Positions 37,171 through 62,294 of a stretch of DNA of 64,000 nucleotides are shown here, piece by piece. The position numbers and the translations under genes are program-made. A model generated the notes under the pieces. It worked only from the letters and a program-made list of their open reading frames with translations. It searched no databases and was not told where the DNA came from. The DNA is taken from assembly GCA_028874985.1 (NCBI GenBank), contig JAPPGI010000218.1, positions 1 to 64,000 of the forward strand, in the 5' to 3' direction. Positions within the stretch are counted from its first letter, which is position 1; every line of letters starts with the position of its first letter. The DNA comes from Gemmatimonadota bacterium. GTDB taxonomy: Bacteria; Gemmatimonadota; Gemmatimonadetes; Longimicrobiales; Gaopeijiaceae.

Positions 37171-39603
37171 TCACCAGGTTCGCTTCACCGCAACCGACCA
37201 CTCGAACGGTCTTCCGTACACCTGCTCGATGTAGGCGGCGGCGGTCCCCCAGGCGGATGTCCCGGTCACGAGATAGCGTTCGTCCGTCAGGTTGCGGAAC
37301 GCGGACAACACCTCCCACCCGCCGTCCGCGCTCGCCAGGCCGACCGTGGCGTGGAGCAGGTGATACCCCTCCTGAAACAGCTGGGGCGTGTTGACGGGGT
37401 CGTGAAACTGCGACGCCGTGTACGTCCAGTGGAGCCGGGGGGTGACGGGCAGACCGCGGACGTCGAATGTCCTGCCGATCCGGAGCGAATGGTTGAAACG
37501 GGGTGTCTTGGTCAGCTTGTAGTCCGGCAGCACCGGGCTGTTCTTGCGCACGGCGTCGCTCAAGCTGTCGTACTCCGCGCTCAATACACCGACGCTGGCC
37601 GCGATGTCCCACCCGCCGGCCGGTATCCACGCCGCCTCCAGTTCGGCACCCTGGAGATCGGCCGACCCGCCGTTGACGGTGATGGGATTGATCGACTCGC
37701 GGATCACGACCTGCAGGTCCTCGTAGTCGGCCCGGAAGAGCGCCAGATTCAGCCTGAGACGACCATCGCCGGTACTCGACTTCAGGCCGATTTCGTAGCT
37801 GGCGACCGTTTCGGGCTCGTAGTCGGTCGGGGGGGCGTCGGGCGAATTCGGTTCGTAGCCGGGTGGGGGGGACGGAACCCGCGCGTCGAAGCCGCCGCTC
37901 TTGAATCCCTCGGCGAATCCGACGTAGGCGATCGTGTTGTCGTTCAATCGATGGGCGAGGTTGGCCATCACGGTCAGCGCATCGAAATCCCTGGTGAACT
38001 CCTTGTTGGCGAGGATGCGGTCCCCGCGCTTCATCGGCCCGGTGGCGGCTCGGAAGATCCCCCTGGCCAGGGGCCACGTGGGTCCGTGGATGCTTCCCCT
38101 GCCCTGCGATGCGTCACCCACCGCGTGGACATCCGGCGTCACGGCCTTCCAGTCCCTCGTGTAGCGTGCGCCGACCGTCAGCGAAACCGCCTCCGTCACG
38201 TCGGCCGTGGCCTGGGCGAACCCGGCCATCGACGAGTTGACCAGGTCCCAGTTGCTGTCGAACGCCCCGGTCGGGAGCGTCACGGCGCCCAGATAGTACC
38301 CCGTTTCGCGCACGAGGTAGAGGCCGGTCTGCCAGTGTATGCGGTCGTCGAGGCCGAAGCCGCTCAACTGCAACTCCTGGCTGAGCTGCTCGGATTCGAC
38401 CGTGATCTGGATCTGCAGGATGTTGGCGGGCGTGTTGTCCGCGTCCCGGGAGCTCCGCATGTCCAGTCCCCGGTAGCCCGTGAGAGACCGGAGCGTGACG
38501 CCCCCGCCGAGCGACCAGGAGACCCTGGCGCCGGTGCCCCACGAGTCCAGGCTGTCGAATGCCGGAAAGGTGCCTTCCGAGATGTACTCTCCAGCGAAAC
38601 TGTCGGGCCCGTAGCAACCCTCGGCGCCTCCCGCGCCCTGCCCGGGCGGGGGGAAGGTCGGCGGCCCCATTGCGGGGAAGTTGGGGTTGATCGTGATCGC
38701 GGTGCAGCCGGGCAGCGCCGCGTTGCCGAACGTCCCGAAGGCCTGCTTGTCGTTCACGCCCCCGTTGACGGTGGGTGCCCCGTTCTCCCGCCTGCGGGAA
38801 TAGTCGGCCGTCGCAAGGACCTCGAAGGTCGCCGAGGGACGCCAGACGATCGCGCCGCGGGCCGCCTGTCCGTTGTCGTCGCCCATGTCGAGTTCGTCGT
38901 CGTGGATGCGCGTCACGTACCCGTTCCGCTTGCGCAGCCCCAGCGCCACGCCCCCGAACAGCCCGTCTCCCAGGGCACCGTTTGCGGACGCGGTCAGGTT
39001 TGTCATCCGGTCGTCGCCGAACTGTACGCGCATGCTTCTGCGCGCTTCGGCGTCCGGCCTCCTGGAGTGCACCGACACGGCTCCCCCGACCGCGTTGCGC
39101 CCGAAGAGCGTGCCCTGCGGTCCGCGCAGCACCTCGACGCGTTCCACGTCGATGAGGTCCATCACCGCTCCCACCGAGCGCGGCATGTATATCCCGTCGA
39201 CGTAGACCGCGACTCCGGGATCCGTCACCGGCAGGAAGTCACGCTGCCCCACGCCCCGGATGTAGAACTGTGCCGCGGACTTCGTGCCCGAGAGAGCGCC
39301 GGAGTGGTTGAAGTTGACGTTCGGCATGACCTGGCCGAGCCGATCGGTCGTTCCGACCTGGCCAATCTCCAGATCGCGGCCGGACAGGGCCGAAACCGCC
39401 AGCGGGACGCTCTGAAGGCGTTCCTCCCGGTTCCTGGCGGTCACGACCAGCGGTTGCAGCCTGACGACCGAGTCGGGTTCGGGTGGGGGATCCTGGGCCC
39501 GGGCGGGCGGCACGGCGACGGATGCTGCAGCCGCCGCGATCCCGGCGACGGGGAGCCCGCGGATGAATCCGCGCGAGCACCGAGAGCGTGCGGGCCTGTC
39601 CAC
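37171..39603 (-). CDS. TonB-dependent receptor (iron-complex receptor type)
   Basis: This 810-residue outer-membrane receptor imports a small ligand using TonB energy. The signal peptide ends near PPARAQD. A TonB-box-like start and plug follow, with VVTARNREERLQSVPLAVSA, AVYVDGIYMPRSVGAVMDLI and VEVLRGPQGTLFGRNAVGGA. The barrel ends FEWSVAVKRTW. There is no carboxypeptidase-like domain, unlike the other two receptors here. The start is a GTG without a good ribosome binding site. The first 18 or so codons (RSRCSRGFIRGLP) are translated from a fragment of the dispersed repeat described separately. A DUF1330 gene ends six bases upstream, so the two are likely co-transcribed. Confidence 0.9.
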   Translation of the reverse strand: MDRPARSRCSRGFIRGLPVAGIAAAAASVAVPPARAQDPPPEPDSVVRLQPLVVTARNREERLQSVPLAVSALSGRDLEIGQVGTTDRLGQVMPNVNFNHSGALSGTKSAAQFYIRGVGQRDFLPVTDPGVAVYVDGIYMPRSVGAVMDLIDVERVEVLRGPQGTLFGRNAVGGAVSVHSRRPDAEARRSMRVQFGDDRMTNLTASANGALGDGLFGGVALGLRKRNGYVTRIHDDELDMGDDNGQAARGAIVWRPSATFEVLATADYSRRRENGAPTVNGGVNDKQAFGTFGNAALPGCTAITINPNFPAMGPPTFPPPGQGAGGAEGCYGPDSFAGEYISEGTFPAFDSLDSWGTGARVSWSLGGGVTLRSLTGYRGLDMRSSRDADNTPANILQIQITVESEQLSQELQLSGFGLDDRIHWQTGLYLVRETGYYLGAVTLPTGAFDSNWDLVNSSMAGFAQATADVTEAVSLTVGARYTRDWKAVTPDVHAVGDASQGRGSIHGPTWPLARGIFRAATGPMKRGDRILANKEFTRDFDALTVMANLAHRLNDNTIAYVGFAEGFKSGGFDARVPSPPPGYEPNSPDAPPTDYEPETVASYEIGLKSSTGDGRLRLNLALFRADYEDLQVVIRESINPITVNGGSADLQGAELEAAWIPAGGWDIAASVGVLSAEYDSLSDAVRKNSPVLPDYKLTKTPRFNHSLRIGRTFDVRGLPVTPRLHWTYTASQFHDPVNTPQLFQEGYHLLHATVGLASADGGWEVLSAFRNLTDERYLVTGTSAWGTAAAYIEQVYGRPFEWSVAVKRTW
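39552..39603. repeat. Repeat fragment forming the start of the TonB receptor gene
   Basis: The plus strand reads gagcccgcggatgaatccg followed by cgcgagcaccgagagcg. This matches the terminal segment of the dispersed repeat (compare 42377-42414 in reverse complement). It encodes the receptor signal-peptide n-region on the minus strand. Confidence 0.65.
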
Positions 39604-39609
39604 GTACTG

Positions 39610-39897
39610 CTACGAGACACCCTCGACAATCACGACCTGCCGGGTGCAGGCGCCGCCTACGGTGCTCAGGGCCTCCTGATACTCGGGGTGGTCGTAGTAC
39701 GCCTGCGCCGACCCCATGTCGGGAAAGCGCTGGATGACGACGATATCGGGCGCCTCGCCCTCGCGCGTCACGCACCTGTTGGCCCGCACCGCGAATTCGC
39801 CGCCGAATTCGGGCATCAGGGCCGTCACTCTCTCCACGAATGTCGAATAGGCTTCGGGATCGTGAACCTTCGTCCTGATCACTGTGTAGGCTGCCAC
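39610..39897 (-). CDS. DUF1330 domain protein
   Basis: This 95-residue protein has the compact ferredoxin-like DUF1330 fold: an opening strand AAYTVIRTKVHDPEAYSTFV, a central FGGEFAVRANRCVTREGE, and VIQRFPDMGSAQAYYDHPEY before the final strand QVVIVEG. The family is widespread and cytosolic, with no assigned reaction. I use the GTG at 39897 because GGAGGA lies eight bases upstream. The longer frame from 39978 has no ribosome binding site. It sits six bases before the TonB receptor, but no functional link is known. Confidence 0.85.
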   Translation of the reverse strand: MAAYTVIRTKVHDPEAYSTFVERVTALMPEFGGEFAVRANRCVTREGEAPDIVVIQRFPDMGSAQAYYDHPEYQEALSTVGGACTRQVVIVEGVS

Positions 39898-40045
39898 CTT
39901 GAGACTCCTCCGGAATTTGCGAGTTGGTTTGTCGGGGTGTGCGGGAGCTGCGTCCGCTTGCCGCGTGGATATGGCCAAGTGTACGATACCGACTCAGCGT
40001 GGAGCACCGCAAGTTACCTGATGACAAGGACATACTCCGGGTGAG

Positions 40046-40291
40046 CAGTCCGTGGATAAAGCCCCGCGAGCACCGAGAGCGGCGAGGCGCCGGGCTGGCA
40101 AGGCGCGACGACAGGGGAATAGCAGCGCTATTCGCCCGAGGAGCAACGCAGAGCGTAGCCGTGGAGCTGCCGAATGTATGCTGTGATTGACAGAATGTAA
40201 TGTTGTCTTTACATCGTGAATGGGTGAAGCGTAGCGTCCAGCCCGGATGCATCGCCGTTCGAATGCCGGGGGGATTCTGTCCACGGGCTGC
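40046..40291 (+). repeat. Dispersed repeat, copy 1
   Basis: This is a near-complete copy (about 246 bases). Module A (40046 to about 40170) begins cagtccgtggataaagcccc and contains the hairpin GAATAGC-AGC-GCTATTC (40117-40133). An AT-rich middle shares about 40 bases with copy 2. Module B (about 40228-40291) carries cggatgcatcgcc and gaatgccggggggat. It fills most of the 406-base space between the DUF1330 gene and the NCS2 permease, and no other gene is seen there. Confidence 0.8.
40187..40215 (+). promoter_or_regulatory. Candidate promoter inside repeat copy 1
   Basis: A perfect TTGACA at 40187-40192, a 17-base spacer and TACATC at 40210-40215 lie in the AT-rich middle of the repeat, 89 bases before the permease start. 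The matching region of copy 2 keeps the spacer and TACGTT, but has ATCACA in place of TTGACA. Confidence 0.4.
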
Positions 40292-40303
40292 CAGGGGAGC
40301 CAC

Positions 40304-42076
40304 TTGAAGCGTTCGCGGCCGCGTTCCAACGAAGACCTGCGCTACGAAGCCGCCGACCGGATTCCCGGGCCGCTCGCGCTTGCGCTCGGCGCGCAGCTCG
40401 CCGCCCTGGCTCTCAATGGGGCGGTGCTGATGCCGACGATCGTGTTTCGCGCGGCCGGCGCCGAGGAACTTGTCGTGTGGGCGGTTTTCGCATCGGTCCT
40501 GGCTTGCGGCGTATCGGCGATCCTGCAGGGAGCGCGGGTGGGACGCATCGGGTCGGGCTACGCTCTCACGCACATCAGTTCGGCGATCTTCATCGCGGTC
40601 TGCGCGGAGGCGCTCATTCAGGGGGGACAGGGACTGCTCGCCACCCTGGTCGTCATCTCGGCGGTCGCCCAGGGGGCGCTTTCCGCGCGGCTATCGCTGC
40701 TGCACCGGGTTCTCACGCCCATCGTCACGGGGACGGTGATCATGCTCCTTCCCGTCACCGTGATGCCGATTCTCTTCGACATGCTGAACGAGGTGCCGTC
40801 CGGAGCCCCCGCGTACGCCGGGCTGGTGAGTGCCGTCGTAACGATCTCGACCATCGTGGGGATCGCCTTGAAGGCGAAGGGGACATTGCGTCTCTGGGCC
40901 CCCGCCGCCGGCATTGTCGCCGGTTCTCTCGTGAGCGCCTTCTTCGGAATCTACGACACCGCGCGCGTCGCCGATGCCGCGTGGTTCGGCACCCCGCCGG
41001 GCCGGCCGCCCGGGCTGGACCTCGGCTTTGGTCCGCCGTTCTGGACGCTGCTGCCGGCATTCCTGTTCGTCGCGCTGGTCGGCTCGACGAAGTCGATCGC
41101 CGTCGCGGTCGGGGCCCAGCGCGTGGCGTGGCGCCGGCCGCGGGCGGTGGACTATCGCGCGGTGCAGCGGGCCGTGGCCGCCGAGGGGGCCGGGAATCTG
41201 CTGGCCGGGCTGGCGGGAACGATGCCCAACACACCCCATGCGGGTGCGGTGGCCGCCGTCGAGGTCACCGGCGTCGCGGCGCGCGGCATCGGAGTTGCGG
41301 CCGGGCTGGTCTTCCTCGCGTTGGCCTTCCTGCCGAAGGCGCTCGCGCTCTTTCTCGCCATACCCGCCGGCGTGGTGGCCGCCTCCATCGCCGTGGTCAT
41401 GGCCACGCTGTTCGCGGTCGGGATGCGCGAGGCAGTTAGGAGCATGGGCGCCAACCCCCGCAACGGCCTCATCGCGGGCGTCTCGTTCTGGACGGGTGTC
41501 GCATTCGAATTCGACATGATCCTTCCCGCCTTCTTCGCGGAGTTCGCGGGCGGTCTGTTGAGCAACGGACTGACCACGGGGGGGCTGTTGGCACTGGTCC
41601 TCACGGCCCTCTCGGTTCGGCGAAAGAGCCGGTTCAGGGGCAGGCTCGATGTGGCCGAACTGCCCCGGATCCGGGGGTTCATCGAGGCGTTCGCCGCGCA
41701 CAACGGCCTGGAGGCGATCGGGGAGCGGCTCGATGCGGCCAGTGAGGAGACCTTGCTCACCCTCATGCAGTCCCGCGGGGAAGTGGACGGTGCGGAGGGG
41801 GGGGCCGGGGGTGCGAGTCGCGAATTGCTATTGACCGCGCGCGAGGACGAAGGCGAGGCCGTGCTGGAATTCAGGGTGGGCGCGGCCGGCAGTGGCGAAC
41901 TCAATCTTCAGGACCGCCTGGAATGGCTCGAGGAGCAGACCAGGGCGGCCCGGGTGGAGCATGAGATCTCCCTCCGGCTGCTCAGACACCTCGCTTCCTC
42001 GGTCCGGCACCAGCAGTTTCACGACATGGACATCCTGACTCTCCGCGTTTCCTCCGCTGCCGGGGACGGGTCGTGA
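40304..42076 (+). CDS. NCS2 family nucleobase/xanthine-type permease with C-terminal extension
   Basis: This 590-residue inner-membrane transporter belongs to the nucleobase-ascorbate (NCS2) family. The start region RIPGPLALALGAQLAALALN, the glycine-rich IGSGYALTHISSAIFIAV and the FVALVGSTKSIAVAVGAQRV segment with GTMPNTPHAG fit that family and indicate 12-14 helices up to about residue 450. The last 130 residues form a soluble domain (EISLRLLRHLASSVRHQQFH) that most NCS2 proteins lack. I place the start at TTG 40304, just after a GGGGAG box. An ATG at 40247 would add 19 residues translated purely from the repeat. The substrate is unknown. Confidence 0.82.
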   Translation: MKRSRPRSNEDLRYEAADRIPGPLALALGAQLAALALNGAVLMPTIVFRAAGAEELVVWAVFASVLACGVSAILQGARVGRIGSGYALTHISSAIFIAVCAEALIQGGQGLLATLVVISAVAQGALSARLSLLHRVLTPIVTGTVIMLLPVTVMPILFDMLNEVPSGAPAYAGLVSAVVTISTIVGIALKAKGTLRLWAPAAGIVAGSLVSAFFGIYDTARVADAAWFGTPPGRPPGLDLGFGPPFWTLLPAFLFVALVGSTKSIAVAVGAQRVAWRRPRAVDYRAVQRAVAAEGAGNLLAGLAGTMPNTPHAGAVAAVEVTGVAARGIGVAAGLVFLALAFLPKALALFLAIPAGVVAASIAVVMATLFAVGMREAVRSMGANPRNGLIAGVSFWTGVAFEFDMILPAFFAEFAGGLLSNGLTTGGLLALVLTALSVRRKSRFRGRLDVAELPRIRGFIEAFAAHNGLEAIGERLDAASEETLLTLMQSRGEVDGAEGGAGGASRELLLTAREDEGEAVLEFRVGAAGSGELNLQDRLEWLEEQTRAARVEHEISLRLLRHLASSVRHQQFHDMDILTLRVSSAAGDGS

Positions 42077-42128
42077 ACATGGTGACGACGAGTCCGACCC
42101 CGGAAGGCCGTGCGAGTCCGGCGCCTCG

Positions 42129-42414
42129 CAGTCCGTGGATAAGGCCCCGCGCGCACCGAGAGCGGCGAGGCGCCGGGCTGGCAAGGCGCGACGAGGGCTC
42201 AATAGCAGCGCTATTGGGCTGAGGAGCAACGCAGAGCGAAGCCTTGGAGCCAACAAATGTATACTACAGATCACATAATGTAATGTTGTCTTTACGTTGT
42301 GGGAAAGTGGGGCGAAGCGTCCAGGCCGGATGCATCGCCGGTCGAATGCCGGGGGGATCTTGTCCACGGGCTGCTAGCCGCTCCCGGTGCTCGCGGCGGT
42401 TCATCCACGGGCTC
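42129..42414 (+). repeat. Dispersed repeat, copy 2, with inverted ends
   Basis: This is the longest copy (about 286 bases). The left end cagtccgtggataaggcccc is matched by an imperfect inverted copy at 42377-42414. The internal hairpin is CAATAGC-AGC-GCTATTG (42200-42216). Modules A and B and the AT-rich middle are as in copy 1. The right end lies within the start of the TRAP binding-protein gene. Confidence 0.8.
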
Positions 42415-43392
42415 CTCGCCCTCGCGGCCGGATTGCCGTCCGCGTCCGGATGCCGGCCGGCGCCCGACACCAGAGAGCTGTCGCTGGCGCACTTCCTGTC
42501 GGCGGATCACGCCCTGAACGAGGCGATGTTCACGCCGCTGGCCCAGGACCTCTCGGAGCTCTCGGGCGGCAGGTTGACCGTCAGGCAGTTTCCCGCGGGG
42601 GCACTCAACTCGTCCGCGCCGGCCCAGTATTCGATGCTGCTCGGCGGCGTGGCCGATATCGCCCTTGCCGTCCCGGCCTACACCGCCGACCTCTTTCCGA
42701 AGACCGACCTGATCGCCTACCCGGGCGTCTGCAAGACGGCGAGGGAATGCACCGAGGCCATCCGGCGTGCCCGGCCGGTGCTGGAGCCGGAGTACGAGGC
42801 CAGGGTCCTGGCGATCTGGGCCAACGACGCCCCGGTGCTGCTGACCCGAGACAGACCGGTGCGCACGCTCGAAGACATGCGCGGACTCAAGATCCGCGTC
42901 TCGACCCGGAGCGCCATCCCGTTCATCGAAGCGCTCGGTGCAAGCGCGGTCATGCAGCCCGGTACGGTTGTCCACCAGAGCCTCACGACCGGGGTCATCG
43001 ACGGGGTCGCCATCTCCCCTTCGGGGATCGTCGCGTTCCAGCTCCACGAGCCGGCCTCCTACCTGACCACCTGGCTTCCCTTGTCCGGGCTCCCGTTCGT
43101 CCTGCTGATGAACCAGGGGGTATACGATGCCCTTTCTTCGAAGGAGCAGGGTTGGATCGACGAAGTTGCCGATGACTCCCTGTCCCTGGCCGGGGCCGCG
43201 GCATGGGCGCGAGCGGCAGCCGAGGGCCTGCGGATGGCCGTGGAGGCGGGTGTCGAGATCATCGATCTTGCGGAAAGCGAAAAGAGCCGGTTCGAACTGG
43301 CTGCCGCCTCTCTCCGTGAAGCAGGGCTTGCGCGCCAGGCGGGCGACATGACCGTCGGCGAGGTCATCCGCCTGTTCAGCGGGGCACGGTGA
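42346..43392 (+). CDS. TRAP transporter solute-binding protein (DctP family)
   Basis: This 348-residue protein captures a carboxylate-type solute for the TRAP permease encoded downstream. The lipobox-like end of the signal is ASGC (Cys near residue 36). The mature part follows the DctP fold: LSLAHFLSADHALNEAMFTP, VRQFPAGALNSSAPAQYSML, the conserved-arginine region GLKIRVSTRSAIPFIEALGA, and QSLTTGVIDGVAIS. The N-terminal signal region (SRSRCSRRFIHGLL) is translated from the right end of repeat copy 2. The start is uncertain: ATGs at 42244, 42286 and 42346 all lie in repeat sequence. I chose 42346 as giving the most ordinary signal-peptide length. The ligand is not predictable. Confidence 0.88.
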   Translation: MPGGSCPRAASRSRCSRRFIHGLLALAAGLPSASGCRPAPDTRELSLAHFLSADHALNEAMFTPLAQDLSELSGGRLTVRQFPAGALNSSAPAQYSMLLGGVADIALAVPAYTADLFPKTDLIAYPGVCKTARECTEAIRRARPVLEPEYEARVLAIWANDAPVLLTRDRPVRTLEDMRGLKIRVSTRSAIPFIEALGASAVMQPGTVVHQSLTTGVIDGVAISPSGIVAFQLHEPASYLTTWLPLSGLPFVLLMNQGVYDALSSKEQGWIDEVADDSLSLAGAAAWARAAAEGLRMAVEAGVEIIDLAESEKSRFELAAASLREAGLARQAGDMTVGEVIRLFSGAR

Positions 43393-62166: not shown

Positions 62167-62174
62167 GCTGCTAC

Positions 62175-62294
62175 CAGTCCGTGGATAGAGCCCCGCGAGC
62201 ACCGAGAGCGGCGAGGCGCCGGGCTGGCAAGGCGCGACGAGGGGCCAATAGCAGCGCTATTGGGCTGAGGAGCAACGCAGAGCGCAGCCTTGGA
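62175..62294 (+). repeat. Dispersed repeat, copy 3 (module A only)
   Basis: This 120-base copy starts cagtccgtggatagagcccc and carries the hairpin CAATAGC-AGC-GCTATTG (62246-62262). The AT-rich middle and module B are absent here. It fills the space between the ACP and hydrolase genes of the polyketide locus. Confidence 0.8.

Follow-up and report, generated by a model that had tools for sequence, protein, structure and literature searches.

A mobile repeat found in frame within predicted signal peptides of unrelated exported proteins in a Gemmatimonadota genus

Two unrelated genes in the stretch of DNA analysed here (the window, bases 1-64000 of contig 126 in G000, a 4.25-Mb draft genome of 230 contigs), encoding a TonB-dependent receptor (PF07715 and PF00593) and the solute-binding protein DctP of a TRAP transporter (PF03480), share an N-terminal peptide derived from the same end of a short repeat, read in the same orientation and in the same frame, as the first-pass annotation had noticed. 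This end, which encodes RSRCSR-x-F-I-x-G-L and is called the A end below, forms the positively charged n-region of predicted signal peptides in many unrelated genes, both in G000 and in relatives of the same genus. The named relatives, reached via a PstS-like protein, are Gemmatimonadota metagenome-assembled genomes, and their isolate labels may point to an origin in marine sponges. Taken as a whole, the observations are probably best explained by a mobile repeat that lands, in frame, in the removable secretion signals of unrelated exported proteins, which would act as a disposable target for insertion.

Frame and end specificity of the fusions

A signal peptide was scored when an open frame held an uncharged hydrophobic stretch near the repeat end, a lipobox or A-x-A motif, and coding-like sequence downstream, and this rule was run on every outward frame of the A-end copies. 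Among 204 non-tandem copies, part of which had been fetched because they looked like fusions, 28 read through into a signal peptide in the SRCSR frame, none did so in the second outward frame, which usually has a built-in stop, and the third gave two hits, both false positives. The other end of the element yielded 5 weak hits in 94 copies, scattered over the frames. The unselected sets are those of G000 and of G021, a closed genome of the same genus, with 9 of 75 and 6 of 80 copies fused, respectively, after one false hit was removed from each count. The search of the genome for the pattern, as had been proposed, thus led to nine G000 genes (L003, L011, TonB, L043, L052, L056, L071, L080 and TRAP). 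In these two sets the SRCSR frame holds 15 fusions and the third frame none, which under equal frames corresponds to p ~3e-5, or to 0.001 with the two false positives included (binomial, calculated by hand). Four candidate fusions, L051 and L054 (frame-2 hits), L049 and L283, were discarded on reading, being explained by downstream starts or antisense frames.

Directly after the last codon of the repeat, 37 of 42 fusions have a G, vs 118 of 182 other copies, as would be expected if the element targets in-phase CTR with a G behind it (Leu-Ala/Val/Gly). None of 77 full-length copies was found inserted in frame in a mature protein; L254 and L276, with coding-like flanks on both sides, were considered as mid-protein insertions and rejected, since they contain stops. 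Many of the fused signals end in a lipobox. Export by the twin-arginine translocation (Tat) pathway was rejected by eye, as SRCSRGFIHGLL has no RR pair with the hydrophobic positions of the S/T-R-R-x-F-L-K consensus after it, and export would probably be of the general secretory (Sec) type.

In the window, the TonB receptor gene (37171..39603, minus strand) has a predicted GTG start at 39603 and the N-terminus MDRPARSRCSRGFIRGLPVAGIAAAAASVAVPPARAQ. Its A end (39550..39588, minus strand, with the exact 17-bp core at 39588-39572) is translated in frame as RSRCSRGFIRGLP, which would be the n-region of the signal peptide, and the GTG (39603-39601) lies within the other terminal inverted repeat (39593..39612, minus strand, TAGCAGTACGTGGACAGGCC) of a minimal copy of ~63 bp. 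The TRAP DctP gene (42346..43392, plus strand) has a predicted ATG start at 42346, the N-terminus MPGGSCPRAASRSRCSRRFIHGLLALAAGLPSASGC, and an A end (42379..42417, plus strand) read as RSRCSRRFIHGLL that would form the n-region of a lipoprotein signal, with the native core from ALAAGLPSASGC onwards. Between its native start region and the A end sits a 250-bp copy of the miniature element (42128..42377, minus strand), which appears to interrupt an older A end. The closest start codon is an ATG within the right end of this copy, which would serve as the TRAP start. In both genes, the start codon and the n-region would come from mobile DNA, and the hydrophobic core and the cleavage region are native.

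Translation might instead start downstream of the repeat, which would then be upstream untranslated sequence open by chance: high G+C makes open frames common, and the start codons within the repeat mostly lack a clear ribosome-binding site. However, in the nine G000 cases the interval from the repeat core to the hydrophobic core holds no ATG, GTG or TTG, or such codons occur only inside the hydrophobic core, and the other frames show nothing comparable. In the TonB gene, seven codons separate the in-frame upstream stop from the repeat core, and the sole ATG, GTG or TTG there is the GTG of the terminal repeat (CGTGGACA). A downstream start is, therefore, very improbable.

Empty and filled sites and the fate of the interrupted genes

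Filled and empty states of the same site were observed among orthologues. When the sequences flanking the insert in the PstS-like lipoprotein gene were joined and used as a query, matches were obtained in 21 of 23 genomes. The N-terminus was read in 19 genus orthologues, all with short native signals (e.g. MKRIVRRIVALAALGVVACGGG), while G000 is filled, with 58 extra codons (174 bp) between Leu14 and the next Gly, at CTG-GGC. For an M16 peptidase lipoprotein gene, G021 has the filled site, with an in-frame gain of ~58 codons at CTG-GCC, and G012 and G018 have the empty one. Both of these clean insertions are located at an in-phase Leu-Gly/Ala pair inside the hydrophobic core. For TRAP, native n-regions were found in G019 (VGKRRPTLALAAATALTAGC) and G007 (VRSRLTLALAVGLPVATGC), the gene of G098, from another genus and 86% identical, also has a native n-region and no repeat, and longer or shorter repeat remnants are present in G016, G003, G018, G012 and G014. 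In a third gene family, some orthologues are full, some shortened (MRTAVGLATVQARRSRCSRGFVHGLLAGVSLL in G013) and some empty. The TonB gene of G012 was dropped as a clean empty site, since a piece of the other repeat end sits just upstream of it.

The homologues without the repeat have different, native n-regions, as seen in the comparison that the first-pass annotation had suggested, and the RSRCSR N-terminus without the repeat was found neither in genus homologues nor, for TRAP, in the readable matches from other genera of the family. The same annotation had proposed that the repeat could help displaced genes gain or keep secretion. The first part of this proposal finds no support in the clean comparisons, where each gene already carried a signal peptide when the element entered it, so that secretion would at best be kept. 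The cases nearest to keeping secretion are those in which the element would supply a usable start, namely TRAP, TonB, and the two genes that follow large-element insertions (L071 and L080).

If the fused frames were decaying pseudogenes, the signal-peptide match would be left-over sequence. Native starts are indeed displaced by 58-83 codons or by whole elements, and some genus orthologues are broken, such as TRAP in G022. Nevertheless, the repeat-bearing frames that were checked are intact, and between species pairs sharing an insertion the rest of the gene has a dN/dS of 0.12-0.28, so the repeat-bearing genes are working genes under continued purifying selection. Gene inactivation has, accordingly, hardly any probability as a general explanation.

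The element and a candidate tyrosine recombinase

The 17-bp core has 104 matches in G000 with up to 2 mismatches, vs 12 for a reversed-pattern control, and a longer pattern finds 93 copies there and 0 in its control. The number of A ends in this genome is ~76-93. With the longer pattern, 96 A-end copies were counted in G021, 165 in G010, 62 in G006, 55 in G003, 45 in G007, and 16 in G001. Copy number is, consequently, very uneven within the genus, as illustrated by the 2.8-Mb G010 and the closed 4.1-Mb G001, at the two extremes of these counts. In genomes from outside the genus, the repeat is for the most part missing or scarce.

At its ends the element has terminal inverted repeats that match imperfectly (TAGCAGYCCGTGGAYA / TCCACGGRCTGCTA), and its two main size classes represent net gains of 174 and 249 bp. 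The RSRCSR frame is open through 29 of 30 short copies and 20 of 35 long ones, although in DNA this rich in G+C the remaining frames are frequently open as well. The conserved sequence reaches as far as CTGCTAG at one end and CTAGCAG at the opposite end, and the flank resembles CTRG; 2-bp TG/TA flanks fit a target-site duplication at the M16 locus and are degenerate at the PstS locus. Being short, present in many copies, bounded by terminal inverted repeats, and carrying the ends of an autonomous element without a transposase of their own, the copies are, by their sequence, similar to miniature inverted-repeat transposable elements (MITEs), in which the target-site duplication is usually TA.

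An A end is found 114-117 bp after the stop of a PF00589 tyrosine-recombinase gene in 10 of the 12 gene copies that are at least 86% identical, over several genomes. Among the eight copies that are at most 82% identical no clear A end was seen, only one weak match with 7 mismatches at another distance; the more divergent copies have different sequences after them. Because an A-end-like sequence follows the recombinase gene at this distance, the short copies look like internally deleted derivatives of the recombinase-bearing element. In the closed G021 genome, an element of ~5.3 kb that carries cargo as well as the recombinase is bounded by the same pair of ends as the miniatures and is followed by two tandem miniatures at 171-bp spacing. 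All 23 genus genomes contain members of this recombinase family (386 aa, PF00589; e.g. G021:C1:2851345-2852499; L345 and L328), at 4-54 copies per genome, which makes it a large mobile family with cargo genes. The tyrosine recombinase probably moves the miniatures as well. In G000, the unrelated lipoprotein genes L071 and L080 (C55 and C180) stand directly after large recombinase-bearing elements; their native starts are far away, and a usable start must therefore lie in the element.

Tandem miniature arrays of up to 5 copies, at 171 or 174 bp spacing, occur at G021:C1:3738395-3739209 and 4079258-4079736 and at G003:C38:121343, suggesting repeated integration at the same site. In some other copies ATGGAGTG... 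stands in place of the final bases of the A end (G021:C1:2232542, 3355232, 3508021 and 3972118; G007:C103:10214), and the four G021 copies share a longer sequence, ATGGAGTGGACGCCCCCTCCCGACGGCATCGCAATGTGCCAAGATGGTA, a composite with a second repeat.

Further copies are present in the window. A miniature of the 250-bp class (40045..40294, minus strand, with its A end at 40081-40043 facing left) lies in the spacer before a gene for an NCS2-type permease, and it is 84% identical to the copy in front of TRAP, so that, over 40045-42377 of the window, the permease gene and two flanking 250-bp copies in the same orientation are found. Another A end (62172..62210, minus strand) precedes a gene that has its own start and shows no signal-peptide fusion. 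Upstream of the TonB receptor there is a short gene (39610..39978, minus strand) whose TAG stop (39612-39610) lies 6 nt before the TonB GTG, making translational coupling of the two genes possible.

Probable insertion at a disposable target, and known repeats

The following sequence of events could account for these observations. A family of elements, probably moved by the tyrosine recombinase, would shed miniature copies bounded by TAGCAGYCCGTGGA...TCCACGGRCTGCTA, which would favour CTRG as their target. Since the common net gains, 174 and 249 bp, are divisible by 3 and one frame is mostly open, a copy entering at an in-phase Leu codon whose neighbour begins with G would leave the reading frame intact. 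Such Leu-Ala/Val/Gly pairs are typical of the hydrophobic cores of signal peptides. An insert in the core of a protein would be destructive, while in a signal peptide it would add Arg-rich residues (..PAPRRSRCSRGFIHGLL) to the n-region, with the FIHGLL of the repeat joining the native core, and signal peptidase would remove the entire repeat-derived part, so that the finished protein should be unchanged. Later, internal deletions may shorten the insert or, alternatively, a start in the element may take over, be it the right-end ATG, as at TRAP, or the terminal-repeat GTG, as at TonB.

The window holds ~7 in-phase CTR-G sites in predicted signal peptides vs 54 intergenic CTRG orientations; if both kinds of target were equally tolerated, ~5-12% of copies would be expected in signal peptides under neutrality, a crude figure derived from a single window with a home-made gene caller and lenient scoring of signal peptides, and 12% and 7.5% were seen in G000 and G021, respectively. 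The number of cases is thus close to that of near-neutral insertion at an allowed target, and a benefit need not be assumed, although this number leaves room for one. Adaptive recruitment would mean that the A end is kept or selected as a ready-made positive n-region, together with a start codon, aiding gain or retention of export. The strong bias to one end and one frame is in line with it, as are the retention of insertions across species (TRAP in six genomes and the third family in seven) and the element-derived start codons predicted in TonB and TRAP. On the other hand, own signals predate the insertion in the clean comparisons, the observed fractions lie inside the rough neutral expectation, shortened remnants are common, and the repeat-derived codons show no clear excess of synonymous change. 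Recruitment is, for these reasons, unlikely.

Besides the roughness of the neutral estimate, some points weigh against insertion at a disposable target. Some n-regions are very long, with ~45-75 residues between the predicted start and the core, which is unusual for Sec signals. The synonymous share of substitutions is alike in fused (26/98) and unfused (77/315) A ends, and a 2-bp TA/TG duplication would also suit an IS630/Tc1-type transposase.

If disposable-target insertion is correct, signal peptides are a coding niche in which in-frame mobile DNA survives, the inserted residues being cut off, and the empty and filled sites across ~20 related species let the process be followed. It would provide a concrete route for the turnover of start codons and N-termini in exported proteins, and it carries a warning for annotation, since N-termini in such genomes may be repeat-derived. 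More tentatively, and rather doubtfully at present, the element itself may have been selected to be readable as an n-region, given its frame-neutral length, its open frame, and an Arg-rich end that leads into the hydrophobic FIHGLL. It would then be a selfish element adapted to a peptide that the host invariably throws away, with export signals as its safe harbour.

A search of openly licensed papers found no publication on this repeat or on the recombinases of its hosts. In size, terminal inverted repeats, TA-like termini, high copy number and mostly intergenic location, the element resembles the bacterial MITEs Correia/NEMIS, ERIC and RUP, which are 100-250 bp long (PMC2229807, Table 1). RUP is linked to an IS630-type transposase, whereas the ends described here are linked to a tyrosine-recombinase gene, and, unlike those MITEs, the element forms tandem arrays at fixed spacing.

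For mobile repeats in frame, the standard reference is the Rickettsia palindromic elements (RPE; Ogata et al. 2000; PMC2229807, PMC10969869). Going by these descriptions, the two systems have in common short repeats that are in frame in many protein genes and open through the element, with the genes staying functional; in-frame insertion into coding sequence, by which RPE are recognised, was found here at the PstS and M16 loci, with ~58 codons each. According to the same descriptions, RPE occur within proteins of many kinds, while the present repeat was found in frame only in signal peptides, with no mature-protein insertion in the 77 full-length copies.

The RU-2/YPAL repeat of Yersinia forms part of one predicted signal peptide, that of YPO1552 (Delihas 2007, PMC2759123; reviewed in PMC2229807), and there too homologues elsewhere have unrelated signals. 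That case is a single highlighted locus and its mobiliser is unknown, in contrast to the at least 15 loci in two unselected genomes reported here, where a single end and a single frame are used and where there are empty sites, a target motif, and a recombinase as the candidate mobiliser. Precedents for repeats in signal peptides or in frame thus exist, as isolated cases (RU-2/YPAL and RPE), and the present element works in a similar way but differs from them in being confined to signal peptides, in the specificity of its end and frame, and in its association with a tyrosine recombinase.
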